From NCBI GenBank assembly GCA_010909725.1, contig JAACMV010000029.1:1-25064 (forward strand): a stretch of 25,064 nt of DNA, in the 5' to 3' direction. A model generated the notes under the pieces. That model was not told the DNA's origin. It ran no database searches and worked only from the letters and a program-made list of their open reading frames with translations. The stretch is from Picochlorum sp. 'celeri'. Lineage: Eukaryota; Chlorophyta; Trebouxiophyceae. Both the position numbers and the translations under genes were made by a program. Positions 1 through 25,064 of this stretch are shown piece after piece; position 1 is the first letter of the stretch; every line of letters begins with the position of its first letter.

Positions 1-1801
1 ATCTCTGCTTCCTAAGCTCTTCTCTTCCCTCTCCGATTTCAGAATCTGAATGACATCCCTCTCAAAGCTTTCCAGCTTGGTCTGCCATGCATTTATAGCT
101 GCAGGGGGTACTTTGCGAGATAAGAGCTCAATTTTTCCTTTTTTGATAACTTCCTTCAGGAGGGAGCGATCGCCATCCTCTATAAAAGTGATGCTGCGCC
201 CAGATGTCCCTGCTCTTGCTGTCCTTCCAATCCTGTGCAAATACCCTGTCAAGTTTCTCGGTGCATCGAAATTAATGACAGTTTCTACGCCTAATATATC
301 CAAACCACGCGCAGCTACATCTGTTGCAAGCAAGAAACCCGCTTTTCCTGTCCTGAAGTCCTCCAAACTTTGCAACCTTGCAGCTTGGGTCATGTCTCCA
401 TGTAGCTCCACTGCGAGCGGGAGATCCGCCAAGCCAAAGAGAATTTTTGCCCTGTGGGCTTTCTGCTTTGTTGAGAAAAATATAATAGCCCTTCCTGACG
501 TCCTAAATCCTCGTGCTACGAGGGCCAATAGTGTTGCCTCCTTTTTAACTGATGCCTTGCCTTTCAGCCTCAAAACTTCCTGCGTCAGTGCCTTGGGTGC
601 GGCAGAGGTCTCATCCGCCGCTAACCGCACAGGATGCCTCAAAGATAATTTTATCAAATCTTTGACCTGCTCGGTCATTGTGGCGGAGAAGAGTAGAGTC
701 TGCCGTTTCTCTGGTGCCATTTTCACAATCTCGTGAATCTCTTCCTTAAATCCCATCTCGAGAAGTCTGTCAGCCTCGTCAAGAACAAGTGTCGCTATAT
801 CTTCTAGTCCAAACCCCTGGCTGTTCCTCAGATGGTCAATCACGCGCCCTGGTGTTCCAACTACGATCTCAGGCCCAGTGCGGAGTGCTGCTGCTTGGGC
901 ATTTACTGAGAGTCCACCAACGACTAGGGCAGCCCGTATGTCTGTAAACTGTGCAAGTCGTTCAATCATAGAGTGAACTTGGACCGCAAGCTCTCTTGCA
1001 GGCACAAGAATCAAGACATACGTGGCAGAAACTCTCTTGTCTCTGTACAGCAACCTCTCCAGCAAGGGTAAGCTGAATGCTGCTGTTTTCCCGGACCCCG
1101 TGATGGCGCTGCCACATATATCTCTTCCTGTTAGAGCAAGCGGGATACATGCTGCCTGAATTGGAGTTGGCTTCGAATACCCAAGCGCCGAGCATGCTCG
1201 AATGAGGGGTCTTGACAAATTCAAGTCCCCAAAGCTGGAGGCTGAAAATTTCGTGTTCTTGGGTGCTGACCCAAAATACCCTGGCTTCTCTTCGCTAGTT
1301 TTGCCCTTTCTTTTATCCCTCTCAGATGTAGAATGCGCCTTTTTCGACTGCTCTGGTTCCACGGGATGACCACCATCACTGGATGGTTCATCATCATCAC
1401 CATCGTCAGATGATGGTTCCTCGTCGCCAGGTTCATCAGATTCTGCCTCTTCGAGCTCCTCCTCACCAGGGAGAAGTTCTTCTTCACTGCTTAGTTCTTC
1501 TTCGCCTGTATCTCTGTTCCTTCTTGCCGTCCTTGCAGTCTTCTGAGCCCTTATTTTGTAGTCAATGCTCGTCCCAGTGGATTCTACCGCATCCTTAAGA
1601 GCGTCTACATGGCAATATCAAAGTATGTTAACAGTGAGTACGGACCCCTCGGGCTTCTATCCGCTTCAAACGCGTCCTTTCAAAACAGCGCCATGCATGG
1701 CATGACCACTTTGTCACCGCACCTGAGAAATCCCATGGTGTTTGCTTAGGAACTGACTCATCTCTGATATCAAACGAGAATTGGGGGTTGAAATCGCCCA
1801 T
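1..1801 (-). CDS. DRS1: DRS1/DDX27-type DEAD-box RNA helicase, 3' end cut by window
   Basis: ATP-dependent RNA helicase of the nucleolar DDX27/Drs1 group, which acts in 60S ribosomal subunit assembly. The reverse strand shows the helicase motifs in order: Q-motif region (KPTPIQAACIP), AITGSGKT (about 1083-1110), PARELA, GTPGR, LDEADR (about 770-800), LFSATM, ATDVAARGLD and HRIGRTARAG. A long acidic Glu/Asp stretch precedes the core, and LNLSRPLIRAC is typical of this subgroup. Exon 1 (1801-1723) encodes MGDFNPQFSFD, resembling the DFNPxFxF start of DDX27. A 118-nt intron (1722-1605, GTGCGG...TAG, phase 1) restores the frame into DALKDAVESTGTSID, matching the conserved N-terminal helix. An in-frame ATG at 1849 is an alternative start. 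The protein runs off the window at base 1, so only a C-terminal tail is missing. Family assignment is firm; the exact orthologue is inferred. Confidence 0.9.
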
Positions 1802-1967
1802 ACTTTCTTTTTTTTTTCTGCGGAATTCTTTTGCAGAAACGAACAGCACGTTTGGCGAGCAGTCTCTTCCACGCTACTGAATGTTCGATTACATACAACT
1901 GTAAATTGTGAATCAAATATACTCAACAAATTCAACGAATCAATAAGAATGAACAGTGCTGTGAAAT

Positions 1968-3755
1968 TCAGGCAGACTTTTGATGGGCCATCAAGTTCAA
2001 ACTCACTTGGGACGCAGTTTTCCTCATGTGCGCCGAAGGCGATGGCTTGCTTGTCAGGAACGGCAAGAACACGGCCATGACTCCTTCGGATCGTATGATG
2101 GGGAAAATTATGCAGCACGCAGTATAGATGAGTGTGATACTGGCGAGAACTCCCTGACTGAGGGCCTCGGGAGCAACAGCCTTCCAACTCCATACAATGC
2201 AACCATGAAAAGTGGGCAACTAGTACTGATGGCCTCGGGTTCAGACCTGAAAGCAGCGACACAGGACCACTTGAGTACATTCCTCCCAACTTGAGATAGT
2301 TGAAGCAAGCTTGTCTCATCTCTTCCTGTGCTGGACTACCTGTGGAACAGAAGACCTTGTACAATGCATTTGCCAGGGTATTCACTGTTGCAGACAATGG
2401 CTTTCTCTTTACGTAGAAAGCAGAAGTCGCATCGCAGGTCTCAATTGCACTATCAAAGTTGGACAATGGATTCAACATCTGACAGAGCAGCAATGTGTCC
2501 GACAGGGCAACTGTCATGCCGCCCCCAGTGAGAGGATGCCTCATGTTGAAGGAATCTCCCAACAGCAGGGCTCCAGGCTGGTGAAGTGGGGCGCTCGTCA
2601 GCTGTTTGTTCTGCATCGTCCTGATTCTTCCCTGCTTCACTGCCTTACAGAAAGCTTCTTGCAGCGTTGGCGGCACTTGAGGTGCAATGCGTTCAAGCAA
2701 ATATTCGTGAAGTGCACCCGAAGTCATCGGAGGAAGCTTCTCTCCTGGATAGTCCACAAGGCAACGAACTTCTGACGACGATATGGGATAAAATAGCACT
2801 GGTGATGGCTCTGCCAAAATCACATGTCCGAAATTAGCATGTGGCACGGCAACATCTTTCAACAACAGTCCCACAAAGTAGGAGGGAAACTTCATATCTG
2901 GCTTGCTCAGCTTTTTCCTGAACGACGAGTACATGCCATCGCACACAATTGTCAGATTGCCCAAAGCAGTCTTATCAGATCCATCGGACGACTTGTACCG
3001 TACCCCAGTGACAACTTGTCCCTCTTCCCATTCTTCTCCCTTGTCTGGAAAGCACACAGAAGAAGTTAGAATTTCAGGCAGCACACACGGATGACGTCGA
3101 TACCGTACCATTGATCAATTTCTTCACGATGCCTTGCCTCACAGTAATGTTTTCACAGCCGGAAGCAGCCTGTCTCAACTTTTGCACAAATCTGCCATGG
3201 TGGAATGACCTCCCAGCAATGTCCTCCCCCATACCCTCCAGCGGATATCCAACTTTTGCCTCCTCTCCATTCTTAAACATGCAGTATCCGTACACCTTTT
3301 GGGCATCAATGCCGTCCACACAGTGTTCCAAGCCTAAAGATTTCAAAGCCATGTAACCCCCTGGCTGCAGCAGCTCTCCCACGATCCTATCGGGCTGCCT
3401 CAAGTCTCGTTCCACCAAGAGGACTCGCCTCCCACGCCTTCCCTGTTCGTACGCGAAAGCCGAGCCAGCCACTCCAGCACCAACAACTATGAGATCCCAT
3501 ACCTACAAATATACATATATATGGTGATGTTGCCGAGCCAACATGGTTGAATTCATCCAGAGTTCCGCAAGGACGTTGAGCAGAGGCGCTGAAACCTCCC
3601 AAACGTCACGGGCCTCTTCCACTGGCGCGTCTCTTCAAGCATACCTTTGGATCATTTTCGTAGTCATCATTGGAGGGAATGGGTGGAAGGATCATTCCAG
3701 TGTCTTCGATGGAGTCAGTCACCGGCGCATGGGCTTGGTTTTGTTGCTGAGACAT
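1968..3755 (-). CDS. SQE: Squalene epoxidase (squalene monooxygenase), with two single-base frameshifts near the C-terminus
   Basis: FAD-dependent oxidation of squalene to 2,3-oxidosqualene, the entry to sterol synthesis, normally on the ER membrane. Three exons: 3755-3645, 3502-3109 and 3044-1968, with introns of 142 nt (GTATGC...TAG) and 64 nt (GTACGG...CAG). Visible family motifs are the dinucleotide fold VVGAGVAGSA with LLVERD, then GRFVQKLRQAA, LTIVCDG, GDSFNMRHPLTGGGMTVAL and LLSGLNPRP. The membrane-associated C-terminus is readable only by changing frame twice: after LVAHF (about 2208-2211, a run of four A on the plus strand) and again between 2112 and 2167, before CIIFPIIRSEG. Both shifts fit one missing base each. 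With both bases present the protein would be about 527 residues, normal for the family. No N-terminal membrane anchor is evident. Either indel sequencing errors or a C-terminally damaged allele. Confidence 0.92.
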
Positions 3756-4037
3756 GTTTGCCCACCTCCACAGAAAAGGTAATTATATCCCTGTCACTCG
3801 AAGATACTACTAAAAAATTAATTATTGATCGGTAGGAAAGGAGGGAGCGTCTGGCTGTTCACGTGGACAAGATCAGAAAGTTGTCACGTCACCTCTGTTC
3901 AGTTTTGAAAAAACTGATGCTCAATGTCGAGAGATTTTTACCACTCACGCAATACAATGACTTACATATAATCCGAATTTGAGGATTGTGCTCATCTTTC
4001 ACCATGCATCACCACCGGGCATGTAATGACTGGAACA
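3756..4037. other. Intergenic spacer between UCH37 and squalene epoxidase
   Basis: No gene is seen. It must hold the 3' end of UCH37 and the promoter of squalene epoxidase, both on the minus strand. A minus-strand TGTAA (3962-3966), the polyadenylation signal typical of green algae, lies 72 nt past the UCH37 stop. Confidence 0.5.
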
Positions 4038-5067
4038 TCAGATGAATTGGTCGAGCAGGCGGTTTTTGCCCATGATTTTCAGGCAATGGAAGATGAACGG
4101 CGTAAAGTCTGTCCGTCTGTACAAATTTTCCATCTTCCAAGCCTTCCTCTTTTCTTCCTCGTCCCGAAGAGCTGCCGTGTTCTTAGCAATCTGCTGTCGG
4201 AGCTCTAAAATTTTCCGGCGAATTTCAACTGCCTGATGCATTTCTTCTAGGGACTGCATTTCCTTCTCCAGGGCAGCAATATCTCTACGAATGGCTTGTG
4301 ACTTATCTTCGATGATGGCTTGCAGCGAAAATCGTTCTTCTGAACCTTGATACATCCTTATTCTCTCCTGAATTGCTTCGATCGCCTGGTGGATCCAGGC
4401 GCCGTCCTTGACGGCACAAATTGCACGAGGACCCGGGGCTAGGCCATCCAACTCGTAGACACGCCCATGAATAGGCATGTATGCAATGTAATGGAACGCC
4501 TCTCCTTCTGAAGAGCTCGTCTTTTCTGGCAACAGATGAGACGCTGGAGGTCTAAAAGAATTGTGAACCTCTCGCAGAATCTCGCTGTTCCCGATAGAAA
4601 GCCCCTTCATTTCCATGTCAAAATCTGCCGTGAACGTTTTCATCTTCGATAATTCCTTCCCCAGAGCAAATCTGTCCCCTCTGTAATGTTCATGAGGACA
4701 TTGACAATCGCTTGGGTCGCGCATGCGTTCTGAATGACTTGCTTTGCAAAATAGATGTTTGAGTCCGCCTCTTGGGTCTCTTCTGCCTTGGAGCGTGTCT
4801 GCTCCAGTTCTGCCTCTATCCCTGCATCCCATTTGAAAAGAAAGATTAAAGCATACACATGTCCTAGTTTTGCCAAGGTTTCATCGTCGAAACTCTCTAT
4901 TTCTGCCACCTCTGCACCCTGGACTCCAACTCTCTGAACGAGTTCCGTGAACACTGCTGGATCTGATTCGACTGCACCGTATGTAATATATTGTTACATG
5001 TGATATTTATAACTATGTTTGCAATTGCGACAGGAGGAACCGTACTCGTCGTCCACGTATCGGTCAT
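4038..5067 (-). CDS. UCH37: Ubiquitin C-terminal hydrolase UCH37/UCHL5, with one single-base frameshift
   Basis: Cysteine protease of peptidase family C12 that trims ubiquitin chains, usually bound to the proteasome through its C-terminal ULD helix. Exon 1 (5067-5046) encodes MTDTWTT. A 74-nt intron (5045-4972, GTACGG...CAG) joins it in phase 1 to exon 2, giving IESDPAVFTELVQRVGV, the usual start of the family. The catalytic triad is visible: Cys91 in QNACATQA, His in FHYIAYMPI and Asp in YELDGL. The C-terminal part contains a Gln/Glu-rich coiled coil and ends KMENLYRRTDFTPFIFHCLK, the characteristic ULD tail. Between NITEGTD and ALGKELSKMK (about 4665-4680, at a T run on the coding strand) the frame changes by one missing base. 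Corrected length is about 318 residues, near the family norm. The start codon lies only 69 bp from the repeat array, so the promoter may overlap repeat unit 1. Confidence 0.9.
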
Positions 5068-6071
5068 GTCGATTACAACATTTTACCGCTATCGGTGCAA
5101 CACCTGATACCTCATGAATTATGGAATCGAATAAACATTCCCGCGATGCTGTCTTTGATTACCTGCCTTTCATCCGGGATCAGTGTCTTGATTCAAATTT
5201 CGTACATAGATTCGAGGATTCGTTCGGTGGACGGTCTCTGGACCGACCAGCCTCATGCGAGATGGGATGGTGCAGCCCATGTGTTTGAACGCATGGTTTG
5301 ATGCGAATACTTCAAATATTTGGACATAGACAGATGGTTCCAAACGTACGGGGTGTTTTGCTTGTGGACCTTGAACATGAGACAGGGCAGTTGTGGACCA
5401 TATGTTGGTCGTTGCCGACGGAAGAGGTGCTTAAATACGTGGCAGACTGTGTTGACCAACAGAGAACTGTAGCCGAGGTCTGTAGAAGTTCGAGTGTGCA
5501 CCGATATTGAAGGCAATGCCATGTCCCTAGTCCCTACGCAATTAACAGAAAACTATATCATTATGATAGATGGTCCATGGTGATTCAAACGTACCCAAGT
5601 CAATTAACAGTGCAATTTGTTTTGCTGTGTGGTGGGCAGGAGGCTAGTATCAGATGTCTTGTGGGGCACTCATCACCGTTCTCTTGCTCTTAGCGCCATT
5701 AATTTCCCTTTCATCATACTAATATGATCTCCTCAGTCATTTGATCGGTGTTGTCTTCTTCGTATAGCCGCGTTTGGTCGCAAGTATCCGTGATACATCT
5801 GAGATCCTTTGGGGTACCTGAGTGTTGCTCCCTTCCAGTCATTACCCTTCTTGCAATGCTTGGTGTGCATCAATCCGGTATCCTTGGCTTCGAGATAATG
5901 CTCTATTCTATTTCTTAGAGGCGAGAATCTCTTGGCGCTTTGGCCGCTGTGTGATTGATTACAATCTTCTTGTCTTCTATTTCCCACAGTATCGATGTGA
6001 GTCATTCCAACCTATACCTTCCTTTTGTTTCGGCAGATCTTCGTGATTCTCTCGATCCTTTGTTTTATCTC

Positions 6072-12998: not shown

Positions 12999-13000
12999 TA

Positions 13001-13024
13001 CCGTAAAAATTTTAAATTTCGTTT
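13001..13024 (+). repeat. Left terminal inverted repeat of the Fanzor element
   Basis: Begins CCGTAAAAATTTTAAATTTC and pairs with the right end in inverted orientation, with three mismatches over 24 bp. A further inner match, GGAATGT (13031-13037), mirrors ACATTCC at 15530-15536, so the repeat probably extends to about 37 bp. Confidence 0.82.
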
Positions 13025-13132
13025 AATTAAGGAATGTAACATCTAGTCCATTTGACTCTGGTCAATCCGAATCTTCTAGAACCTTGGATTGGTATGAAGT
13101 CGAGCCGCCATCGCCAACCGTGTCATTTCAAA

Positions 13133-15446
13133 ATGAAAAAAAAGAGAAAGGTGTCCGCCACACCATCGAAAAAGGTGAAGAAAAAGAAGTTTACTCGATT
13201 GGATGTGGCTATAAAGAAGGATAAAGACCGTTTTTTTCAATAAGACAGTCGTCAAGTGCACTTTGCAGCCTTTTTGTAAGTTCAAAGTGGTTCAACGCGA
13301 AATTGAAGAATGTGTATTCTATCTGAGTAGACTACAGATTCATGTGCATCATGTCATGCATCTATTGTTATTGAGGAACGGTGGGGCATTTAGAGACCAC
13401 AAAGATGAAACTCTCTACGAACTCTACAACAAAATCTACAGACACCTTGCTAATCATTTGCAACAAAAGAAGGAGAGAAAGGATGTTGATACCAACTTGC
13501 GCGACTTGTGCAAGGAATATTGTGAGGAGACTGGGTTAAAAACAGATTGGCCACAGGGTTGTCTCTCTTCTTGGAGAGGCAAAACAATGGAGCAGATGGC
13601 CCAGCAGTCATCTGTTATGCATACCACGCATTTGGAAACCAATCTTAATGTATATGCATTACGGTATCTGAGATATTTGCTATTTCGAGACGACACGGAC
13701 TTTGACCAAATCAAAAATTTGTCAAAGAAGAAGTTTGGACAAGTATTTTCTGCAATCACACAGGCATTCTGGGAGAGGACGAAAGTCAGTGATATTGTTG
13801 AACGTAGACCATCATTGACAGAATTTGCGTCTGATGTGTCAGTATGGGATGAAGCACAGAGAGCCTTGGATATCATTTGCTCGTTGGTGCCAAAGACGAC
13901 AACTCTTTCTGAGAAATCCAGAATTTGCTTCTTCATTTTGGGTCACTTGGAGCCATTCGTGGAATCACTGCAACAGAGGTTCAGAAACGGAGAGTTTGAA
14001 GGGAAGAAGAGTATACTTGGAAGACAGAAATGGACATTTTGTCTGTGTCCACAGATGGCCTGGAAACCAAAGCATATCCATATCTCCAGCACAGCAGTGA
14101 AGACTATGGTTGAGCAACTCGCAAAGAAATATCCATATATCAGAAAGATAGTAGATGACTGTCCAGCACTGGATGACTATACAAATAAGTATTATTATTG
14201 GAAATCGATATTCAACATGAAGCGAGTATTGAAAAAAAAGCACATGAAGGACCAAACGAAACTCAGATTCGGATGCTCTATATGCACTGATGGCGTCTCT
14301 GTTTCTGCTGTTATAGACACTGTGAAGTCGGATCTGGAATGCAAGATAATCCATCTGCAGGATGATATGAATTACGTCAAAGCAAAGTTGTGGGCCACCT
14401 ATAGTGGGATGTTTGCAACCAACATTATTGCAAAAAAGATCAGATATGACCCTTTGCGTATTCTCCTTGGTGACATTTCCACCATACATTATGTTCTACT
14501 GAAGCCATTGTTGCATACATTAAAGTCACAAAAGGACGTTCTACAGAAACGAAAGGCTAAAAACAAAGACAAGACAGTCATCACAGAAAGGATCAAAAGG
14601 TTGGCTGGCATACGCAAAGATGACCATGGTATATATCACACAGATTGTATCATTGTCGGTTTGGACCCAGGTAAAAAGTCAGCGGCCACGTGGGTTTTTC
14701 ATGATTCGGAAAAGCAAAAGATCCATGCAAAGTGGAATGCAGAAAATGGTCGTCATACAGAGGTGGAAGACAGATATAAAAGTGATTCTCTGGGGTCAGG
14801 AGAATGGATCTTCTTATCTAGTCAGAAACAGTATACAGCCAAAATAAAGAAAAGGATGTCTGAATACTGTCCTGCATGGGTGTCTGTGCCAACATACAAG
14901 ACAGTAGATCTTGAGAAAATTTTTGAGAGTTACAGATTCCAAGTTTCTATGTGGCCCCAACTGCAACAAGCCTTCTTCGATGACAAAAAATGGTATCAGA
15001 AACAGAAGATGAGGAAATTTTGCAAGGAAAAGTCGGCCATGGAGGATGTGGTTGCTCGAATCTGTGGAACAAGAAACAAAGAGGCACAGAAGAGAGTCAT
15101 CGTGGCGTATGGTGATGGTGATAATAACGGCACAATGAGGGGCACTGCTCCTATCATGAGCACAAAACTGTTCAACAAGGTATCGGAATGTGCCACAGTT
15201 GTGTTGGTTAATGAATTCAATACGTCCAAACTCTGTTCTTGCTGTCATGAGGCAATGGAACAGTACAACAAACAATTCAGGATGAAACGTTGTCACAACA
15301 ATGAATGCATTCGAAATGTTTGGGACCGTGATGTCAATGCCAGTATCAATATCAAAGACTTGTTTTTGGAAAAGTGTCACAATGGATCTCGAATCAAGGC
15401 TTTCAAGAGGACGAGGAAAAGGCAAAGGACATCAACACGGCAATGA
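13133..15446 (+). CDS. Fanzor (eukaryotic TnpB/OrfB-like RNA-guided endonuclease), one frameshift near the 5' end
   Basis: Eukaryotic homologue of transposon TnpB, an RNA-guided DNA nuclease with a split RuvC domain. The RuvC residues are present: Asp (codon 14664) in VGLDPGKKSAATW, Glu (15213) in VNEFNTSKLC and Asp (15330) in WDRDVNASINI. Between them lies the zinc ribbon with Cys codons at 15234, 15243, 15291 and 15306 (CxxC...Cx4C). NEFNTSKLCSCC is a Fanzor-type signature. The main open frame covers 13215-15446 but has no early ATG. The frame upstream, starting at ATG 13133 (or 13094), encodes a very basic peptide opening MKKKRKV, a classical nuclear-localisation motif. It joins the main frame only if the 7-T run at 13231-13237 had six T. 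Joined, the protein would be about 770 residues. No introns are seen. The C-terminus is Arg/Lys-rich. Catalytic residues look intact. Confidence 0.92.
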
Positions 15447-15567
15447 ATTCGGCATGTAAGTCGGCTGCTTTTTGCAGACGCTATGCTTCAAGATACAGCA
15501 GAGAGAACGATGGAACTTCCAAGTTTGGAACATTCCGTCCGACAAACGAAATTAAAAAATTTTACTG
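15447..15567 (+). ncRNA. Candidate guide-RNA (fRNA/omega-RNA) scaffold region
   Basis: In TnpB and characterised Fanzor systems the guide RNA derives from the sequence between the 3' end of the nuclease gene and the element's right end, with the guide taken from flanking DNA. This 121-bp interval occupies that position and contains small hairpins, for example CTGC-TTTTT-GCAG near 15463-15475. The placement is inference from family knowledge; nothing here proves transcription or processing. If correct, the guide of this copy would begin at 15568. Confidence 0.35.
15544..15567 (-). repeat. Right terminal inverted repeat of the Fanzor element
   Basis: Read on the minus strand it begins CAGTAAAATTTTTTAATTTC. 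It lies 97 bp after the Fanzor stop codon. The terminal CTG followed by the flanking TAA also makes a plus-strand TGTAA (15566-15570), which could serve as the polyadenylation signal of the Fanzor transcript. Confidence 0.82.
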
Positions 15568-15569
15568 TA

Positions 15570-15645
15570 ATTTATGGCTACTTATTATGATTAATATTAT
15601 GATTAGATTTATTATTTATTATGATTAGATTATGATATTGTGATT
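15570..15645 (+). repeat. AT-rich TTATGATTAGATT simple repeat next to the cpSRP43 stop codon
   Basis: Degenerate iterations of ATTATGATTAGATT/ATTATT fill the space between the Fanzor right end and the cpSRP43 stop codon; the last TTA of the repeat forms part of that stop. It must lie in the cpSRP43 3' UTR and may hold its polyadenylation site. Confidence 0.7.
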
Positions 15646-16762
15646 AGATTTTGACACCTGGAGGCAGAGCACCGTTGTTCTCAAACATGTAGATGAGATC
15701 TTGGGAGACATGTTCCTCTGGCTCCCAGGTGTCCTCTGATCCATCCATCCATCTCACCAAATACGCACGAGAGTCTCCCTTATTTCGGACATCGAGAATC
15801 TTCTCAGCTTTCGCGTACTCCAGGTTATCTTGGTAATCGGATACGACCTCTTCCGACATGTACTTCTCGTGGACCCACACAGGTTCATCTTCATCGGGAA
15901 ATTTCACCAAGTACTCCTTGGCTCCATCGCCATTTTCTATCTCTCTACTCTCCATTACGGCGTCTGGAAGCACATCTTCGAACAAATTATCCACCAATAC
16001 TTTCAGTACCTCTTCTAGAGCAATTCTACGAGCCGCAGTCGCTGGATTATCCGGGGGCAGAGCTGCTCTCAGGCTTTCGACAAGTTCCAAGGGAGACCTG
16101 CCCTGCAAATCCTGCTGCTCTGGATCTGCATTCCCTTCTATCAAAGCGTATATTGTCGATGTATGAAGATATCCTGCGGCCATGTGCAGAGGAGTGTACC
16201 CTTCTTTATCTCCCAGGTCCACCTCGGCCCCCTCTCTGATGAGACGCCGCACCAGGTCAGCTTTCCCAAGAGCAGCCGCAAAATGGAGAGCACTGCGCCT
16301 GTCCTCATTCAGGGTTCGTGACAAAACAGCGCCTCCGCCGTCGAGCATCTCGCTCATCACAGCTTCGTCTCCCTTTTTGACAGCGTTCCACCATTTGGAT
16401 TCAAAATCTCTCAGCAAATTGTCCGCGAGGTTTGTGACGGGCTCCCATGTATCTGGCGACCCATCCTTCCACTCTACCAAGTACTCCACCATTGGACGAA
16501 CCTTTTTCTCCTCGTCCTCGGCGCTGCGCGGTTTCATTCGAATGCCTTTCAGATTCTTGACCTCGACAATTTCCTCAGTCGCAGCTTGGATCATCAACCT
16601 AGCTTGGGCTTTGCACGCTCGGGGAGTCGTCTGGAAGACAAACAGGGCCCGTCTTGCACCAGTGTCGTGCAGCACCTGCCTTGTCCTACGGATTCCAGGT
16701 CGAGGAGCGGTCCTGGTATGAGGACCAATCGCAATAATGAAATTTCTGTTTATGATTTCCAT
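15644..16762 (-). CDS. CAO: Chloroplast signal recognition particle 43 kDa subunit (cpSRP43)
   Basis: Plastid stromal chaperone that binds the L18 motif of light-harvesting chlorophyll proteins and, with cpSRP54, delivers them to Alb3 in the thylakoid. Single-exon, 372 residues. An N-terminal ~60 residues rich in Arg, Thr and Ala look like a transit peptide. They are followed by chromodomain 1 (about 64-118, YLVEWKDGSPDTWEP), ankyrin repeats (about 122-230, including TPLHMAAGYLHTSTIYALIEGNAD), chromodomain 2 (about 264-312) and chromodomain 3 (about 317-362, YLVRWMDGSEDTWEPEEHV). This CD1-Ank-CD2-CD3 order is unique to cpSRP43. It is the strongest evidence for a green-lineage plastid. It is divergent from the zinc-finger gene and lies 77 bp from the Fanzor element at its 3' end. 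The symbol follows the Arabidopsis CAO locus. Confidence 0.95.
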   Translation of the reverse strand: MEIINRNFIIAIGPHTRTAPRPGIRRTRQVLHDTGARRALFVFQTTPRACKAQARLMIQAATEEIVEVKNLKGIRMKPRSAEDEEKKVRPMVEYLVEWKDGSPDTWEPVTNLADNLLRDFESKWWNAVKKGDEAVMSEMLDGGGAVLSRTLNEDRRSALHFAAALGKADLVRRLIREGAEVDLGDKEGYTPLHMAAGYLHTSTIYALIEGNADPEQQDLQGRSPLELVESLRAALPPDNPATAARRIALEEVLKVLVDNLFEDVLPDAVMESREIENGDGAKEYLVKFPDEDEPVWVHEKYMSEEVVSDYQDNLEYAKAEKILDVRNKGDSRAYLVRWMDGSEDTWEPEEHVSQDLIYMFENNGALPPGVKI

Positions 16763-17210
16763 GTCTTACTCGTCCACGGCGGTCGGAACGGCCGATTGCG
16801 GAGCAATCGTCTAAGCGTGAATTCCCGAGTGCTTCTTCGGACCACGTCACGCCGTCAACCAGCTGATGAAGATCAGTCAAATTCGTTTATAATATTCTCT
16901 TTCGAATGCACCCAGCGGTTCTGCCCTCATCTACGAGAGGAATTTGGAAGAGTCCAATCCAGATAGAATCCATAATTTCCATAATTTGACGTTTTAAATA
17001 CAATATTATCGTTCCTATCGTTCCCATCGTTGATGGGAATGAACATGTCCGTATGTCAGTCGCCGAAAAAACTTGTATGAGTCCACATTTGTTACTATGT
17101 AGAACATTCATCAGGACATATTTGAGCGATAATTATTGTACATCCACAAGACCTTGTGATCCCGGGATTGGACACCATTTCCACCACTGCTCCTGGTGCA
17201 TGAGCCAAGC
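16763..17210. promoter_or_regulatory. Divergent intergenic region between cpSRP43 and the zinc-finger gene
   Basis: This 448-bp stretch lies between two divergent start codons and so must contain both promoters. It has no convincing open frame. An AT-rich part (about 16960-17040) contains short near-repeats of ATCGTTCC(T/C) at 17008-17031. No TATA box or known operator can be assigned with confidence. Confidence 0.45.
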
Positions 17211-17525
17211 ATGGGGAAAGCAAAACCAGCAAAGCATACCGCAGCTGAGCTGAAAGCAAAGGCATTTAATGCAACTGTGAATAGAGGAGGCGGCTCAGCG
17301 GGATTGCAGGACAGAAAGGGGGGGAAAGTCGGGCACAGCAAGTTCAAATGTCCCGTCTGCAACCTCCAAATGCCGTCGATGAAAACCGTGCAGGAGCACC
17401 ATGAGAATAAGCATCCAAAATTACCCTGGGAACCTGAGAAAGTTCAGAATGTGCACGAGCTATCTGGTGGTGTGACCACCCAAGGCGTGGCAGTTGTCGG
17501 AGGACTCAAGAAGAAGAAAAAGTAG
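17211..17525 (+). CDS. Small C2H2 zinc-finger / SERF-like protein
   Basis: A 104-residue basic protein starting MGKAKPAKHTAAELKAKA. It has one C2H2-type finger (FKCPVCNLQM...QEHHENKHP; CxxC, 12 residues, then His pairs) and a Lys-rich tail (LKKKKK). It resembles the small plant and fungal proteins that pair a 4F5/SERF-like N-terminus with a zf-met/C2H2 finger, whose function is poorly known. An ATG at 17196 would add five residues; the 17211 start is chosen because MGKAKP matches the family's usual beginning. The last 20 bp overlap the end of ATG9 on the other strand. A TGTAA lies 78 nt past the stop (17603-17607), inside the ATG9 coding region. Confidence 0.75.
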   Translation: MGKAKPAKHTAAELKAKAFNATVNRGGGSAGLQDRKGGKVGHSKFKCPVCNLQMPSMKTVQEHHENKHPKLPWEPEKVQNVHELSGGVTTQGVAVVGGLKKKKK

Positions 17526-19737
17526 TAAACACGCTCATCTCATTGCTGCGCTCTTGATCATGGCTCGGTGCATTTTGCTTGCTATTGGTTGCTTCTTGGC
17601 TCTGTAAGCTTGCATGCATTTTTTCCTGGTGGTCATGAAAGTACTGGAGCATACTGTACGAGATCATTGTTTTTTTCCCAGGGTCTCCCTTGGCTGTGTC
17701 TTTTCTCAGGTCACAAAGACTTGCGAGTGGATCGTCTTGTGAATTCATCACCATTTTAGCCACGTGTGGGTAGTATGTAATCAAAAACTTCCGTATGTCG
17801 AAATTGGCATGTCCATGCATGTCATACCCTTGAGCTTGCTGCTCCACCAATTCTGGCAATGTTTCATTTTCATCCTGGAACACGCTTTCAACGTTACTCA
17901 GCAGCACTCTACTCTGCTCCGGGGGGTTCCATGTCGGGTAAATTGCTGCAAAACTCATGATGCTCTTTTCCATTTTGCCTTGCTTCGATCTCAGGCGTTT
18001 TGGTCCGTTCCGGGAGCTCCCATACTTTTTATTTCCGTGCTTTGACACGTCGAATGCAGAGAATGAGCAAACATCTCCCAATCCGGGCACATATGTCGTA
18101 TTACTTTGGAGAAATGCGACTATCTCGCTTGCTGATGTAGGCAAAACTCGCCAAAGCAAGATTGGTGTCAAAATCACACTAGCAAGCTCTTCAAGAAAGA
18201 TGGCAGCCCTGTAGCGAAACATGGCTTCAATTTCCTCCTGTACGTCTAATGTGTGAGCTTTCCCACTCCAATGACGAGGATAATGGTGCGTATGGGCGGC
18301 GAGTTCCAGGAGGGCCAACTCTGGGTCAAATGATGTGGTGGATTTGTCAACAACCATGGGCCTGAACACAGCAAGCACCACACCCAAGACAGCCAGCCAC
18401 CAAACTGTCTGCTTTCCACTCATAAAATCTACTTCTAGCAAATCGTCTTCAAACAATGTAAGCGCCATGAGAAGGGCAGCAAATGATCCAGCAATATAAC
18501 ACAGGAAACGAGAGATGTGGCTGACTAACAAATTTGGAAACTGTTTGATATACCTCATTGCAGATTCGTGACCTGAATTCAGTCTGTTATACAAGAAAAA
18601 GGGAACTTCATTAAATTCGCGGAGATACCAAAGGGCCAGGGGGGACCATTGCCTGGCTCCTATGGACCCTGGCTGCCGGTACACGCTCTCGGCGTTTTTT
18701 AGCACACTCTGCAGGATCAACACCACGAGCAAAAATGGCGACAGAGCGATATTTACCAAAGCTGCAGCTCTAAATCTCTTCTTGATTGTCTCAGGAGAGG
18801 AGAGAAACGACTCTTTCACCCGGAGAGAATCGTCAAACATGGCGTTCAAGATGCACCATCTCAGGTTCCATTCAACTGTTTTGGTCAGGAGAGGGGCTTT
18901 TGACAGGCCGGGCAACCCCGAGAAACTCAACGCCAAAACACCCTTGTTGAGCATGCCAATCAAATAATTATCCTTCCGCATGATGCACATGACAATATCC
19001 TGCTCAGTCAGGTCGCGAGACAAGCATATCCTGACCCGCTTTTGAGACTCGACTACCCTTGCCAACACCTCCTGCCACGTCGCCGCACGGATGCCGCGTT
19101 CGCTATATCCCAGGTCGTTTCTCACAAACTCGTAAACACGAGACATTCCTTTGTATTCTGAGACGAGATGCACCACGGCGAGCCCAACATATGCGACAAA
19201 AGCTCCCAGGTACAAGGTGGAGACCACCTTCCACAAGGTTATCGGAAACAAAACCCGAGATCTCTCCCTCAGGCATGCTTCGAGAATACTGCAGGATCCC
19301 TCTTTCAAACATGGATTGCTCAAACCAGAGTAGTTCACGCCCAGAAGAAGAAACCCCGACAACACTCCAGTAAACGCCAGCGCAAGTGCGTTCAGGACTC
19401 GTCCGACCAGGAACTGCCTAAAGCCTTTTGACTCCCAGTACAGGTACAGTTTGCCAAAAAACACATCTAAATTTGCCTCTGAAACCCATGAAACGGGAGC
19501 ATCCCCTTCCAACAAGGCCCCCGGAAGGTTGTCGAGTGACCCTCCTCCAAGTGGTGTCGTTGAAAACTCGCCACTTTGACTCCTCTCGCTGTCAAATCCC
19601 TCGTCGTCGCTCTTCTCCAAGGACTGCAGCAACTGCTCCTCCAAATCCATGCTATTTTGTTTGCAGCATTGCAAATGCACGCTCGGTTGGACGAGGCATT
19701 CAATTTGCTCAGGTAGAGGTGGGACATGAGACATCAT
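17506..19737 (-). CDS. ATG9: Autophagy protein ATG9 (lipid scramblase)
   Basis: Multi-pass membrane protein that seeds autophagosomes and scrambles lipids between leaflets; it cycles between Golgi/endosomes and the phagophore. Single exon, 743 residues. Hydrophobic segments lie at about 113-134, 166-191, 326-345, 411-429 and 445-458. Family hallmarks include NALALAFTGVLSGFLLL, the conserved loop with RWCILNAMFDD, LREFNEVPFFLYNRL, and EELASVILTPILLWRVLP. The N-terminus is acidic and Ser-rich; the C-terminus is polar and poorly conserved, as usual. The first ATG (19737) is used, but the Met at residue 30 (19650, MDLEEQLLQSLEKS) is an equally plausible start. Its stop overlaps the convergent zinc-finger gene by 20 bp. 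Confidence 0.93.
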   Translation of the reverse strand: MMSHVPPLPEQIECLVQPSVHLQCCKQNSMDLEEQLLQSLEKSDDEGFDSERSQSGEFSTTPLGGGSLDNLPGALLEGDAPVSWVSEANLDVFFGKLYLYWESKGFRQFLVGRVLNALALAFTGVLSGFLLLGVNYSGLSNPCLKEGSCSILEACLRERSRVLFPITLWKVVSTLYLGAFVAYVGLAVVHLVSEYKGMSRVYEFVRNDLGYSERGIRAATWQEVLARVVESQKRVRICLSRDLTEQDIVMCIMRKDNYLIGMLNKGVLALSFSGLPGLSKAPLLTKTVEWNLRWCILNAMFDDSLRVKESFLSSPETIKKRFRAAALVNIALSPFLLVVLILQSVLKNAESVYRQPGSIGARQWSPLALWYLREFNEVPFFLYNRLNSGHESAMRYIKQFPNLLVSHISRFLCYIAGSFAALLMALTLFEDDLLEVDFMSGKQTVWWLAVLGVVLAVFRPMVVDKSTTSFDPELALLELAAHTHHYPRHWSGKAHTLDVQEEIEAMFRYRAAIFLEELASVILTPILLWRVLPTSASEIVAFLQSNTTYVPGLGDVCSFSAFDVSKHGNKKYGSSRNGPKRLRSKQGKMEKSIMSFAAIYPTWNPPEQSRVLLSNVESVFQDENETLPELVEQQAQGYDMHGHANFDIRKFLITYYPHVAKMVMNSQDDPLASLCDLRKDTAKGDPGKKTMISYSMLQYFHDHQEKMHASLQSQEATNSKQNAPSHDQERSNEMSVFTTFSSS

Positions 19738-20067
19738 CTCGAGACGCTACAAGTCCCAGGCGATCGCCTTTCTGGTACAATAATTTGAAAATTTGCGCTG
19801 GTTTTGTAGTCATTGAAATGCTCTGTGGTAGGACACCTCAGAGAACTGCATGTACGTTTACACTTGACATGTCAAGGCAATGCACCGCCACAGAGATGGC
19901 ATCACGGTAGTATCTCGTATGATCTGCAGTTTATAAAACTACGTACACGATTCGCTCATCTCTCCAGACCGGTCGAGCACTGCTGGGTACGTTGTCTACT
20001 TTGTTCGTGCGTCTGGCTGCGTGCAACTACACAGCAGGGTGCATTTCGGTGTGCAGGCTCTAGAAGA
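19738..20067. promoter_or_regulatory. Divergent region between ATG9 and ArgRS, possible leader or 5' UTR intron
   Basis: This region carries the promoters of two divergent genes. The ArgRS frame stays open through it from an ATG at 19813, which would add 85 residues. Alternatively, a good 70-nt intron (19987-20056, GTACGT...TGTGCAG) could lie in the ArgRS 5' UTR, matching the donor style of the other introns. Sequence alone cannot separate these options. Confidence 0.45.
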
Positions 20068-22021
20068 ATGTCTAACAAGGTCACAGAAGCATTGTCAAAG
20101 TTGGATCTCATGGTTCAGTCAGCATCTACCTCTCCTTCACAGGGCCAGGCAAGGTCGGTGGCCGCTCAGGCTTCGGCCACCGACAAAGTTCGCTGCGTCC
20201 GTCACGAACTGGTGGACTTGTTTTCCGAGGCCATCCAGAAAGCTTTCCCTGGCCTTGGCTCGGCTGAGCCCGCGCTAGTTAGTGCGTGCAACCAGCCCAA
20301 GTATGGGGATTACCAGTGCAACAATGCCATGTCCCTCTTTGGGCGCTTGAAAGGAACAGACGATGCTCAGAAGAATCCGAGGGCTGTTGCCGACGCGATT
20401 GTAGCAAATTTGCCACCGTCCGAGATCATCAAGGAGACGAGTCTGGCAGGTCCAGGCTTCATCAACATTCGAGTGAATCCATCATGGCTGGCAGCACGCA
20501 CCTCTGCAATGCTCGCCTCCAACGAGGGGATTGCATCATGGGCACCAGAAGGGTATGAGCACAAGAAGGTCATTGTGGACTTCTCTTCTCCTAATGTAGC
20601 AAAAGAGATGCATGTGGGACACTTGCGCTCGACTATCATCGGAGATACCATCTCCAAGACACTAGAGTTTTGCGGTGCTGATGTTCTGCGACTGAATCAT
20701 ATTGGCGATTGGGGTACCCAGTTCGGCATGTTGATTCAGTATATTTCCGAGAAACGACCCGAGGGATTGAATGCAGCCACCAACGAAGATGTTGCGGATC
20801 TACAAGTTCTCTACAGGGCAGCCAAACAGAGGTTTGATGAGGAAGATGACTTCAAGGTTAGATCAAGAGAAGCAGTCACCGCTCTCCAGAGCGGGAAGCC
20901 AGAGTACGTTGAGGCCTGGCAACGAATTTGTGATGCTTCTCGCCGAGAGTTTGAAAAGATATACAAGAGGCTGGGCGTTACCATCCAGGAGAGGGGGGAA
21001 TCTTTCTACAACCCCCTCCTGAATGACGTGGTTGATGACTTGATGGACAGAGGCATTGCAGAGGTCAGCGATGGCGCAACCTGTGTTTTCGTTGATGGGC
21101 ACAAAATTCCACTCATTGTGAAAAAGTCTGACGGTGGATTTGGGTATGCTTCCACTGATATGGCAGCAATCAAACACCGTATATCTGAGGAAAAGGCTGA
21201 CTGGATCATCTACGTCACGGACGCAGGTCAATCCCAACATTTCGATATGGTGTTTGCTGCTGCCAAAAAGGCCGGATATATTCCGACTGATAGAGACATT
21301 AGAATTGATCATGTTCCTTTTGGCCTCGTGTTAGGAGAGGATGGAAAGAAATTCAGGAGTCGAAGTGGAGATGTGCGTGGTTTGCGTTTTAGTTTGTGTG
21401 AGTAGTTTTTCAACTCGTTTCTGAACTCGTTCTGATCGCAATCTGCAGGTTGTTAGGCTGGTGGAGCTACTGGATGAGGCCAAAGAGAGATGTACCTCGA
21501 CAATCAAAGAAAGGCGCCCCGATATCACAGATGAAGAGTTGGATGCTGCCTCCTCCGCCATGGGATATGGTGCAGTCAAATATGCCGATCTCAAAGGACA
21601 CAGGACAACCAACTATCGGTTCTCCTTTGATGAGATGTTATCCCTTCAGGGAAACACTGCAGTGTATCTACTGTACGCTCATGCCCGCATCGCTTCAATC
21701 ATCAGGAAGTCTGGCATAGACCCAGAGGACTTGGTCACTAAAGGGGCAAAGATTGTCCTGGAACATGAGACAGAAGTGGCTCTTGCATTACATATTGCCC
21801 GCTTCCCGGAAGCAATCGAGGCCACTCTTGATGAGCTGACACCAAACAGAATCACAGATTACCTGTATGACCTCTCTGGGGTTTTCAACCAGTTCTACAA
21901 TGAGTGCCAAGTTGTTGGCAGTGATGCAGAGGACAGCAGGCTCCTGTTGTGTCACGCTGCGGCTGTTGTCATGAGAAAATGCCTTTCTCTTCTAGGAATC
22001 ACAGTTTTGTATCGCATTTGA
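20068..22021 (+). CDS. Arginyl-tRNA synthetase (class I)
   Basis: Charges tRNA-Arg with arginine. Two exons, 20068-21372 and 21449-22021, separated by a 76-nt phase-0 intron (GTGCGT...CTGCAG), giving 625 residues. Without splicing the frame stops soon after KFRSRSGD. Visible features are the N-terminal Add1 domain (GDYQCNNAMSLF), the class I HIGH motif as HVGH at residue 182 (AKEMHVGHLRSTIIGD), HIGDWGTQFGMLI, the plant-like KSDGGFGYASTD, the KMSKS-equivalent KFRSRSGD (428-435), and the C-terminal anticodon-binding DALR domain ending LLGITVLYRI. Similarity is to plant-type ArgRS, often shared between cytosol and organelles. The start at 20068 (MSNKVTEAL) is conservative; an in-frame ATG at 19813 would add a leader that shares a motif with the next gene. 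A TGTAA lies 16 nt past the stop. Confidence 0.94.
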
Positions 22022-22208
22022 TTCGCAAGAAGCCGCTGTAACAACATTGATGAGTCCCCATGCATGAGAAAGTCACTGGTCTCAATCGAAATTGACCACC
22101 AAGTGATAGCACCACAATCCTACTGACGTGCCTTACATTTCAAACTGTATCAAAATATATCGTGGAGCCCGGTTGGAACGGATTTGAACTGCATACTTCG
22201 TTCCCACC

Positions 22209-24134
22209 ATGGCCGACCTGCCTTGTTGGACCAGCGCGGCTTCAGCCTTGTCCCATGACGCATTTTGCATTGGTTCGACGCCCGTAAACAATAGATCATA
22301 TTCCTCTGGAAGAAATTCTGTTGGCAGAAGAAGCCGCTTCTGGCGAGCAGCCTTGTCTCAGGCCGACCAGGCTCGAAGCGACTCGTCTGACCTCGTGAGG
22401 ACACCAGAATCGTTTCAAGAACCTCCTGGAAGATTAACGAAAGTAAATAGATTTTCATCTCCTTCTCCAGAGGATCTGTTCCGCTGTGCTGGGTGCGTGG
22501 ACCCCGCTTGCCAAGGTGCTTTTGGGTGTGCAGGCTTTTCGTGGCGACTGGACCCGAATGGGTATCTGAGAGAGATTTTGACGTCCAAGGTGTATGACGT
22601 CGCTGTAGAAACCCCCATGGTGCAAGCGAAAGAACTCGGGCGGCAGTACGCAAATCAAATACTGCTCAAGAGAGAGGACCTGCAGCCTGTGAAGAGTTTC
22701 AAATTGAGGGGGGCTTATAATAAGATGGCCCAACTTACACGAGAAGAGCTGGATAATGGAGTCATATGCTCATCCGCTGGAAACCATGCCCAAGGCGTCG
22801 CCTTGGGGGCGGCGAAGCTGGGTTGCAAAGCAATCATTTGCATGCCAACAAACACTCCAGAGATCAAGGTTGCAGCAGTGAAAGCCTTGGGAGGCACCGT
22901 AGAGTTGGTTGGAGAGAGCTACCAGGAAACCCAAGCGTATGCACAGAAGAAGTCGCGGGACGAAGGCATGGTCTTCATTGCTCCGTACGATGACCCATAC
23001 ACCATTGCAGGACAAGGGACAGTCGGGGCTGAAATTCTGAGACAATGTGACATGGATAATCTTGAGGCTGTCTTCGTGCCCGTAGGTGGAGGAGGTCTGA
23101 TAGCAGGTGTCGCGGCGTACATAAAAGCGCTCAGACCCGAGATCAAGGTAATTGGAGTAGAACCTACTGGTGCCAATGCCATGGCTCAATCCCTGGCCCT
23201 GGGCAAAAGAATCACCCTCTCGAGGGTTGATACATTCGCAGATGGGGTGGCTGTCAAACAGGTTGGTGCGGAGACATTCAGATTATGCAAGGAATACGTA
23301 GACGGAGTTATTCTTGTGGATAACGCTGCCACGTCGGCAGCCATCAAGGACGTGTTCAATGAGACGAGGTCCATCCTAGAACCATCCGGTGCTGTGGCCG
23401 TGGCTGGCGCCAAGGAATATATCAGAAACTATAATATTAAGAATAAGACTGTCGTCGCCATAACATCGGGAGCGAATATGAATTTCGACCGCCTTCGCCA
23501 AGTTGCTGACTTGGCTGGTGTCGGGGAGGACGAAGCCAGTTTGGCTGTGGCTTTGCCGGAAGAGGATGGGTCGTTCGCCACATTTCTAGGACGGGCGATG
23601 AAAGGGCGCACATTCGATATCACAGAACTCAAGTATAGGTACAGCGAAGGGTGTGAGGGAGCCCTCATGTTTGGTCTTGGCCTGTCGCCCAATTCGGAGG
23701 AGTTCAAATCTCTCCTGAAGGAGCTGGAAGAGTATAATTACACGTTTTCGGATATATCTCACTTAGAAATTGCCCAAGTACATCTGAGGCATCTAGTCGG
23801 AGGGCATTCAGGGGGGAAGGGAGCGCTTGACAGTGTTACAGACTCTGTAGATGGTGGCTCAACCTATGAGAGAATCTTCCTTGTTGACTTTCCCGAACGA
23901 GCAGGCTCTTTGGAGAGATTCCTGCCGTCCATTTCTCCCCGTTGGGGAATCACCCTGTTCCACTACAGAAAGTCGGGTAACAGATCATCCGGTGTCTTGC
24001 TAGGGCTGAGAGTGGGCACGGACAGCAGCCACGAACTCGACCAGATTGTTGACCATTTGAATGCTCACAGCGAGTTTGACATTCGAGAAGTGAGCGGTGA
24101 TGCACGAAGAATTTTCAGATTTTTCTTGCGTTAA
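22209..24134 (+). CDS. ilvA: Biosynthetic threonine deaminase (threonine ammonia-lyase)
   Basis: PLP enzyme converting threonine to 2-oxobutanoate, the committed step to isoleucine, normally in the plastid of plants and algae. Single exon, 641 residues. Residues 1-113 form a Ser/Arg-rich leader that fits a transit peptide. The catalytic fold starts at DPNGYLREILTSKVYDVAVETP. The PLP lysine is K165 in PVKSFKLRGAYN, SSAGNHAQGVALGAAKLG follows, and VPVGGGGLIAG is the phosphate-binding loop. Two ACT-like regulatory domains follow from about residue 440 (VALPEEDGSFATFL; then FLVDFPERAGSLERFL...SPRWGITLFHYR), ending RRIFRFFLR, as in isoleucine-inhibited enzymes. The full regulatory region suggests feedback control by isoleucine. 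It lies 187 bp behind ArgRS on the same strand. A TGTAA is found 36 nt past the stop. Confidence 0.95.
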   Translation: MADLPCWTSAASALSHDAFCIGSTPVNNRSYSSGRNSVGRRSRFWRAALSQADQARSDSSDLVRTPESFQEPPGRLTKVNRFSSPSPEDLFRCAGCVDPACQGAFGCAGFSWRLDPNGYLREILTSKVYDVAVETPMVQAKELGRQYANQILLKREDLQPVKSFKLRGAYNKMAQLTREELDNGVICSSAGNHAQGVALGAAKLGCKAIICMPTNTPEIKVAAVKALGGTVELVGESYQETQAYAQKKSRDEGMVFIAPYDDPYTIAGQGTVGAEILRQCDMDNLEAVFVPVGGGGLIAGVAAYIKALRPEIKVIGVEPTGANAMAQSLALGKRITLSRVDTFADGVAVKQVGAETFRLCKEYVDGVILVDNAATSAAIKDVFNETRSILEPSGAVAVAGAKEYIRNYNIKNKTVVAITSGANMNFDRLRQVADLAGVGEDEASLAVALPEEDGSFATFLGRAMKGRTFDITELKYRYSEGCEGALMFGLGLSPNSEEFKSLLKELEEYNYTFSDISHLEIAQVHLRHLVGGHSGGKGALDSVTDSVDGGSTYERIFLVDFPERAGSLERFLPSISPRWGITLFHYRKSGNRSSGVLLGLRVGTDSSHELDQIVDHLNAHSEFDIREVSGDARRIFRFFLR

Positions 24135-24357
24135 AATATATGCATATTCGATTTGATCTCGCATCATAATGTAACATAAAGATGTCGGAAGAGGCCACGA
24201 CCGACAGGAGAAACAACGAGACCAAGGTCGACTCTTTCACGGAGAAGGACGTTCGCGGAGATGCTTCTTCCGCAGACACACCAGTACGATTTTATGGTAT
24301 ATCATATAACTAGCCACAGAAGCATGCACTACCGTGGTTTGTTTGTTGTCCAGGTGT
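24135..24357. other. Spacer between threonine deaminase and the Ku-like gene
   Basis: Holds the threonine deaminase 3' UTR with TGTAA at 24170-24174. An ATG at 24182 opens a short hydrophilic frame (MSEEATTDRRNNETK), but no splice joins it to the Ku frame in the right phase with a good acceptor, so I do not call it coding. Confidence 0.4.
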
Positions 24358-25064
24358 ATGGCAAAGAGCAGGCTTGCCTTCTTGATTGACGCCTCGGAAG
24401 GCGTACAGACAACACTGTACAGTGGGAACCAGAGGGTACGACAATACATTTGACATCATCTTTCTCCTTGTTCGATGACACCATCTATTTTCCCGCAGCG
24501 GTACAAGAACCTGACCCTCTTCCAAGTGGCCCTCAAGCAGGTCCATGATATTGTCCTTTCTAGATTGGCCTTCAGCGTGGAGGATGATATCACCATCATA
24601 TTCTTCAACACGGTATGTTGTATGATTGGTAAACGTCCTGATCAATCCGACCGACCCATCATCATCAATCTGAATTGCAGCCGAGTGCTGGTGGGCAAAA
24701 CCAACTGGGTGGTATTAAGACTTGGCACAGTGCGTCACCGCCGTCGATTGACCTCCTGGATCGCTTGAGCTCGTTCAACTACGATGTAGCTCGGAAAAGT
24801 TCGAGCGGCTCGAGCGCCAACTCCTTCTTGAACGCTCTGATTGCAGCAGTACTTGAATTCAGTGATGCAAAGACTGCATGGGATCATGCCCAAACAAAGA
24901 TTGTAGTCTGGACCCTTGCATCTGATGGCGCATATTGTGCAAGTGAAAATACACTTAGTCAGTGAGCAAATAACACAAATCATAGAGAAGCGTAAATTCA
25001 TGCTACGGATTGTCGCATTGGACCAGACTCTGAACAGGGTCTCCCCAAGGACACTGAGGAGTGT
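24358..25064 (+). CDS. Ku70/Ku80-family N-terminal domain, Ku80 (XRCC5)-like favoured, 3' end cut by window
   Basis: Ku heterodimers bind broken DNA ends in non-homologous end joining and protect telomeres. Exons 24358-24435, 24499-24612 and 24681 onward are separated by introns of 63 nt (GTACGA...GCAG) and 68 nt (GTATGT...GCAG). The protein starts MAKSRLAFLIDASEGV, like the plant Ku80 start, and continues with NLTLFQVALKQVHDIVLSRL, EDDITIIFFNT, NQLGGIKTW and SANSFLNALIAAVLEF, the vWA-like alpha/beta domain shared by both subunits. No Ku70 NEDxP motif follows, favouring Ku80, though IDAS and FFNT are Ku70-like. At 24963 a TGA interrupts the frame; one extra base there restores EQITQIIEKRKFMLRIVALD, which fits the next helix and strand. 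The assignment to Ku is probable; the subunit is uncertain. Confidence 0.6.

Follow-up and report, generated by a model that had tools for sequence, protein, structure and literature searches.

A young non-autonomous Tc1/mariner-type element carrying only a Fanzor1 gene in the diploid green alga Picochlorum sp. 'celeri'

Fanzor1 genes set inside TA-flanked inverted repeats are described by Bao and Jurka (2013, PMC3627910), in a group exemplified by PUl-4 and PGv-1, some members of which carry a transposase and others none. SpuFz1 from Spizellomyces punctatus (Saito 2023, PMC10432273; PDB 8gkh, 9cez) is reported to use the target-adjacent motif (TAM) CATA and to cut after bases 16-17 and 20-21; the TAM reported for GtFz1 of Guillardia theta (PDB 9cer) is TTAAN. 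A comparable element marks the genome of Picochlorum sp. 'celeri', and was analysed in contig JAACMV010000029.1 of assembly GCA_010909725.1 (positions 1 to 25,064, the whole stretch under analysis, hereafter the window; C29 in the contig numbering used below). The original prediction counted this locus among few Fanzors with defined boundaries, a view that does not stand as worded, since Fanzor1 in TA-flanked Mariner transposons has been on record since 2013 (PMC3627910). The genome is described as a phased diploid assembly made from long reads only (27.43 Mb, two sets of 15 scaffolds, single-nucleotide heterozygosity 0.8%; raw PacBio reads under PRJNA598876; PMC7225527), and 27,412,692 bases in 30 contigs were searched. 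It is highly probable that the locus holds a young, non-autonomous Tc1/mariner-type element equipped with a Fanzor1 only, which is moved in trans, encodes a nuclease like those of characterised Fanzor1s, and is retained at occupied sites.

The identity of the element as a Fanzor element is secure. TA is found on both sides and the right end falls on the same final base in 20/20 genome copies. The predicted boundaries are exact; that a Fanzor element retaining its two ends lies in the nuclear genome of a green-lineage host, as predicted, is borne out. The left end is complete in 17 of the 20 copies, and cut in L018, L019 and L020. The terminal inverted repeats are imperfect; each copy contributes one of the 20 genomic occurrences of a 31-mer that spans the right end. 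The element and its flanks are made up of the following parts.

12999..13000, plus strand: left-end flanking TA (target-site duplication), TA at 8/8 loci with a complete left end
13001..15567, plus strand: body of the Fanzor element (2,567 bp), found 20 times in 27.4 Mb at 98-100% identity
13001..13024, plus strand: left terminal inverted repeat, pairing with the right end
15544..15567, minus strand: right terminal inverted repeat, at the end crossed by the 31-mer
15568..15569, plus strand: right-end flanking TA (target-site duplication), TA at 9/9 right junctions
15570..15589, plus strand: presumed 20-nt guide in the right flank, placed by analogy with the SpuFz1 and GtFz1 biochemistry given in PMC10432273

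Target-site duplication of TA and terminal inverted repeats, the features by which Tc1/mariner elements are recognised, are both present. The element is filled by the Fanzor frame, and no DDE/D transposase of its own was found in it. It is a non-autonomous element of the Tc1/mariner type, with ends TACMGTAAAA..., and is labelled so because it lacks its own transposase, while a relative on contig C20 with a matching left end carries a DDE_1 transposase. It had been called complete: both ends are kept, but lacking a transposase it deserves the term only in the non-autonomous sense.

The genome search returned 20 copies at 98-100% identity, one 394-bp fragment and two 68% relatives; the family has spread recently. 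Copies were sorted into nine loci. The window belongs to locus A, which is represented on four contigs, with a further copy in doubt; B, C, D, E, F, H and I hold two copies apiece, and G one. Site A is viewed as one locus because positions 1-5100 of the window recur on C21, C1 and C13, and positions 16200-25064 only on C13; single-base indels cluster among its copies. At each of loci D, E, F, H and I the two alleles have in common bases that no other locus shows. The locus of L019 and L020 (C27:934899, C15:915230) features 32 private bases, and substitutions in these two copies cluster near alignment positions 490-670, as if a patch had come from another subfamily. At C30:37957-38040 a 94% match runs across the joined flanks of site F with no element between them, possibly an unoccupied paralogous target. 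The extra C21 copy (L013) was counted among the 20 copies, and excluded from locus, junction and allele counts. The idea that it had transposed carrying 371 bp of flank was rejected, as its right junction (window 15939-15940) coincides with the end of C1 and with a scaffold gap in C21. In the interval C21:98501-105500 (L060) this second copy lies within the dispersed repeat U, described below, together with 371 bp of right flank; transposition from a cryptic end or an assembly fault may perhaps account for it.

The encoded protein is a Fanzor1, and Pfam, profile and fold evidence agree on this; the original prediction had proposed a Fanzor. The Pfam Cas12f1-like_TNB family is matched with E 1.1e-8, better than the family cut-off; in a profile search of PDB the sole convincing sequence-profile relative is GtFz1 (9cer, E 1.4e-4); the protein has the fold of solved Fanzor1 proteins, with SpuFz1 as the best match. 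The Fanzor1 motif given in PMC3627910, D-X(125,275)-[TS][TS]-X-X-C4 zinc finger-X(5,50)-RD, was found by regular expression in the 727-aa frame, and the DPG plus alternative-Glu signature named in PMC10711439 is present as GLDPG and VNEFNTS. The predicted three RuvC acidic residues and four-Cys zinc ribbon are located as listed.

13133..15446, plus strand: gene for Fanzor1, probably beginning at ATG 13133; in this copy the frame is interrupted at the T run 13231-13237 and uninterrupted between 13263 and the stop
14664..14666, plus strand: RuvC-I Asp in GLDPG (DPG signature), from an alignment of 23 sequences
15213..15215, plus strand: RuvC-II Glu in alternative position (VNEFNTS), aligned with VPEHYTS of GtFz1
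15234..15308, plus strand: four-Cys zinc ribbon, Cys 658/661/677/682 of the 727-aa frame (codons beginning at 15234, 15243, 15291 and 15306), from alignment, Pfam and motif
15330..15332, plus strand: RuvC-III Asp (WDRDVNAS), from the same alignment

Protein searches identified 25 relatives, one of which (P0018) is labelled Picochlorum sp. BPE23; the 12 from the first search are 45-97% identical to the window protein. The alignment joins the window protein to 22 of the 25, three short or partial relatives being excluded, and the D/E/D residues, DPG and the four Cys are invariant in all 23 sequences. To judge from this conservation, the Fanzor is likely a working nuclease. No match was obtained in PDB with the single sequence or in phage collections, and no NCBIfam family was found for the protein; in viral collections, TnpB-like proteins of ~370 residues on three viral contigs were matched only around the zinc ribbon. 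Weak beta-lactamase rows in the profile searches, the best of them at E 0.018, were put down to chance.

Translation likely starts at ATG 13133, which is not included in the frame listed from 13263. This start fits the N-termini of 12 relatives, where Met is followed by a Lys/Arg-rich stretch in nine; the same arrangement comes after a short leader in two, and one is without this region. Read from 13133, the window copy meets a stop at 13241-13243, just past the T run, which is common to three of the 20 copies, all at site A. A 770-aa reading frame is found in 13 of the 20 copies, every one of the eight loci other than A having one or more of these, and the eight intact copies that were checked all have the active-site motifs. 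The suggestion of a complete, possibly active copy does not hold as worded for the window copy, whose frame in this assembly is broken near its start, as in the other four site A copies; intact copies lie at other loci. Frame breaks may be real or may be assembly errors, because the assembly lacks short-read polishing.

In a 6-kb relative at C20:34487-40512 (minus strand; L061, L076-L078) a DDE_1 transposase is combined with a Fanzor of 50% identity within a single element. The left end of this relative aligns with that of the window element and is followed by the DDE_1 frame (E 4.3e-13, in the part scanned); in the C5 allele the frames are broken in the assembly. Seven further DDE_1 rows were found in the genome, one of which is this C5 allele. 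The matching ends suggest that the element is mobilised in trans by a DDE_1 transposase encoded elsewhere, most likely in a relative such as that on C20. At least four further Fanzor-like lineages reside in the genome (C20/C5 near 47 kb, C11/C19/C10, C14:386 kb, C4:78 kb), 29-38% identical to the Fanzor of the element by translated search; among them, only C11/C19/C10 and C14 show the TNB domain beyond the cut-off.

The Fanzor most likely works like characterised Fanzor1s. The element would produce an RNA that extends from its 3' end into the right flank, where the first ~20 nt would serve as guide. The Fanzor would then cut (A)TA followed by guide-matching sequence, in other words the empty insertion site, and the element would probably be kept and spread at sites already occupied. 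The region in question is the following.

15444..15567, plus strand: candidate omega-RNA scaffold region, reaching the right end

Short sequence blocks of the 3' region are common to the 50%-identical C20 relative, and an Rfam search matched no family there. A further step is proposed tentatively, as a live hypothesis somewhat less likely than not: in this diploid eukaryote the Fanzor may serve as a homing drive of natural origin steered by RNA, with the right-flank guide directing cleavage of the empty allele beside (A)TA. Repair from the homolog would copy the element across, and young insertions would turn homozygous.

In this assembly the element is found on both homologous contigs at eight of the nine loci. 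Substitutions between allelic copies number 6/20,461 in the element and 161/23,847 in the 1.5-kb flanks (indels not included; site A is represented by the pair C29/C13, L001/L012). When A, B, D and H are set aside, the figures are 1/10,251 and 38/11,977 (p 1.2e-9). Counts at the single loci are as follows.

Site A: element 4/2567, flanks 35/2942
Site B: element 0/2570, flanks 2/2995 (uninformative)
Site C: element 1/2570, flanks 9/2993
Site D: element 1/2570, flanks 0/2992
Site E: element 0/2570, flanks 12/2991
Site F: element 0/2569, flanks 8/2993
Site H: element 0/2503, flanks 86/2941
Site I: element 0/2542, flanks 9/3000

The C20/C5 relative, excluded from the allelic totals, differs by 0/2,430 in the element part and 6/1,263 in the flank (p 0.0016).

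At locus G only C27 holds the element, and the sequence of C15, which lacks it, resumes at TA; the single allelic empty site thus matches the right boundary of the original prediction. Over the presumed 20-nt guide the empty allele has one mismatch, at +9. Only the right junction was used as empty site, as the alleles have no common left flank. Right flanks are allelic (L014, C27:10466; L059, C15:5048), and the left flank on C27 is a contig-end-type repeat that stops exactly at the element. A normal left junction was rejected here, C27 having a repeat common near contig ends and C15 other sequence; a chromosome-end exchange at the element is perhaps the cause.

The repeat that adjoins the window element on the left provides an internal control.

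5171 (approximate)..12997, plus strand: three tandem units of dispersed repeat U, each ~2.5 kb, ending CGCATCGCAA

Thirteen of the 14 ends of U that were read stop at CGCATCGCAA, and eight of those precede sequence that is neither U nor element. U being a separate dispersed repeat with this constant end, the tandem array was rejected as a duplication caused by the element. Away from the element, U sits on a single homolog at 9/9 loci (C14, two on C30, two on C7, C10, C5, C6, C1); both homologs carry it at the two loci where U and the element are neighbours. Searches for U give lower bounds, and homolog pairs were assigned from coordinate-matched matches. Two-homolog occupancy is 8/9 for the element vs 0/9 for U (Fisher p 4e-4), a comparison that holds only as far as U resembles the element in mode of movement and copy age; its copies are 87-100% identical to the query in the longest matches, and need not therefore all be young. 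Leaving out B and D, the contrast is 6/7 vs 0/9 (p 9e-4). Three loci with short rows of 42-85 nt, six rows in all because each locus has one on either homolog, were excluded; counted as U, they bring it to 8/9 vs 3/12 (p 0.0075).

The target motif is written (A)TA because base 12998, which precedes the left TA, is A. The same base is found at -1 in 8/8 complete left ends (window background 0.357, p 2.6e-4), and in 6/6 when sites A and G are set aside (p 0.002). The base after the right TA is A at six, C at two and T at one of the nine loci. (A)TA fits a nuclease motif, because a symmetric preference of the transposase would favour T after the right TA. Allelic indels within 25 bp of the element are found in the right flank at three of six phased loci, and are lacking at E, C and I.

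Site F: 3-bp allelic gap in the right flank, after +20
Site A: ~42-bp allelic gap in the right flank, from +18, in AT-rich sequence
Site H: 14-bp allelic gap in the right flank, +1 to +14, where flanks are indel-rich on both sides

In the left flank such indels are found at one of six phased loci (H, a small gap); on C11 the site H copy also lacks the left 67 bp of the element. The right-side indels fall at or beside the known Fanzor1 cut zone, which is suggestive only of cleavage scars. Differences are nearer on the right at 6/7 informative loci, an asymmetry discarded as not significant (p 0.125).

The case for homing is made of the two-homolog contrast with U, the low divergence of the element compared with its flanks, the right-side indels, and locus G, the one heterozygous locus, with its guide mismatch and no left flank in common. 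It is quite possible, if short of probable, that homozygosity arose in other ways, insertions made on one haplotype having spread by sexual reproduction in the population or by loss of heterozygosity of the ordinary kind; allelic copies would then be identical because they are young and derived from one recent ancestor. Heterozygosity is patchy (the C22/C2 pair near contig ends differs by 2/3,665), its loss is described as pervasive in the diploid alga Auxenochlorella (PMC12636532), and flanks at B and D are nearly devoid of differences. Both the occupancy of U, confined to one homolog, and site H, where an unchanged element lies between strongly diverged flanks, argue against this reading. 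Purifying selection was rejected as the cause of allelic identity, as pN/pS (the nonsynonymous to synonymous ratio), ranging from 0 to 2.0 in pairwise comparisons between loci, is not low enough. The same range, along with the broken frames, would suit a protein which is no longer the nuclease of the element, and is domesticated or a decaying passenger; intact 770-aa frames at eight loci, active-site motifs kept in all copies checked, and catalytic residues invariant in 23 sequences make this very improbable.

Some two-homolog calls could also be one haplotype written twice, and repeat copies could have been homogenised in assembly. The sequence is described as FALCON-Phase pseudohap output with no short-read polishing (PMC7225527), and several features of site A would fit, as it is on four contigs, with clustered single-base indels, an extra C21 copy beside sequence ending at a scaffold gap, and an alternative pair, C1/C21 (L016/L017), that differs by 18/2,564 in the element and 0/1,821 in the flanks. 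Such artefacts are nevertheless unlikely to explain the pattern, since flank substitutions separate the homologs at A, C, E, F, H and I, six of the eight loci occupied twice, alleles at five loci have private bases in common, and the contrast with U persists without B and D. In the allelic comparison, site D differs in the opposite direction, as does the C1/C21 pair, with which totals become 20/20,458 in the element and 126/22,726 in the flanks (p 8e-18), L017 being indel-rich, with a run of adjacent mismatches that may reflect misalignment. Several observations weigh against the main reading of the element and its Fanzor. Frames are broken in seven of 20 copies (all five at site A, one at E, one at F). 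The left junctions of A and G may not be original, because the left neighbour of A is repeat U and the left flank of G is replaced; in the C20 relative the base preceding the left TA is T instead of A; and the 3' end folds no better than shuffled sequence (z -1.0).

Genes near the element are of ordinary kinds and encode a squalene epoxidase, a UCH-family peptidase, a chromodomain-ankyrin protein, ATG9, an arginyl-tRNA synthetase and a threonine dehydratase. The family being young, multi-copy, intact at eight loci and hosted by a phased diploid alga, the states of its alleles can be used to trace retention and homing, both of which are open to experiment; Cas9 RNP editing is reported for P. 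celeri (PMC10808502, PMC12301381). Homing, if true, would make this a natural eukaryotic RNA-guided gene drive; if wrong, the family still offers a compact nuclease in an element whose ends are defined, together with a probable source of the guide, a predicted target motif, and a transposase-bearing relative in the same genome. A literature search returned no paper on Fanzor in Picochlorum, and a search combining Fanzor with homing or gene drive found no report of Fanzor homing in titles or abstract openings.

Among known systems, the Picochlorum element resembles PUl-4 and PGv-1 as these are described in PMC3627910, and differs in that allelic states can be given for nine loci from a pair of phased haplotypes. 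The protein shares the D/E/D site and the zinc finger with SpuFz1, at 13-14% identity over the structural alignment; the match to GtFz1 is best in the region spanning RuvC-II, zinc ribbon and RuvC-III. The SpuFz1 TAM ends in ATA, like the left junctions in Picochlorum, where the motif is deduced from eight junctions only. In the plasmid gene drive of IS200/IS605 TnpB (PMC11870625, preprint) an insertion-site guide is reported to cut element-free copies, a logic similar to the one proposed here; that system is bacterial, uses another transposase and has been tested by experiment, in contrast to Picochlorum, where the logic is inferred only. A parallel in another diploid green alga is the Fanzor-encoding repeat of Auxenochlorella, called uncharacterised in PMC12636532 and likened to the Picochlorum family on its description, which is reported there to outnumber all other repeats of that genome.
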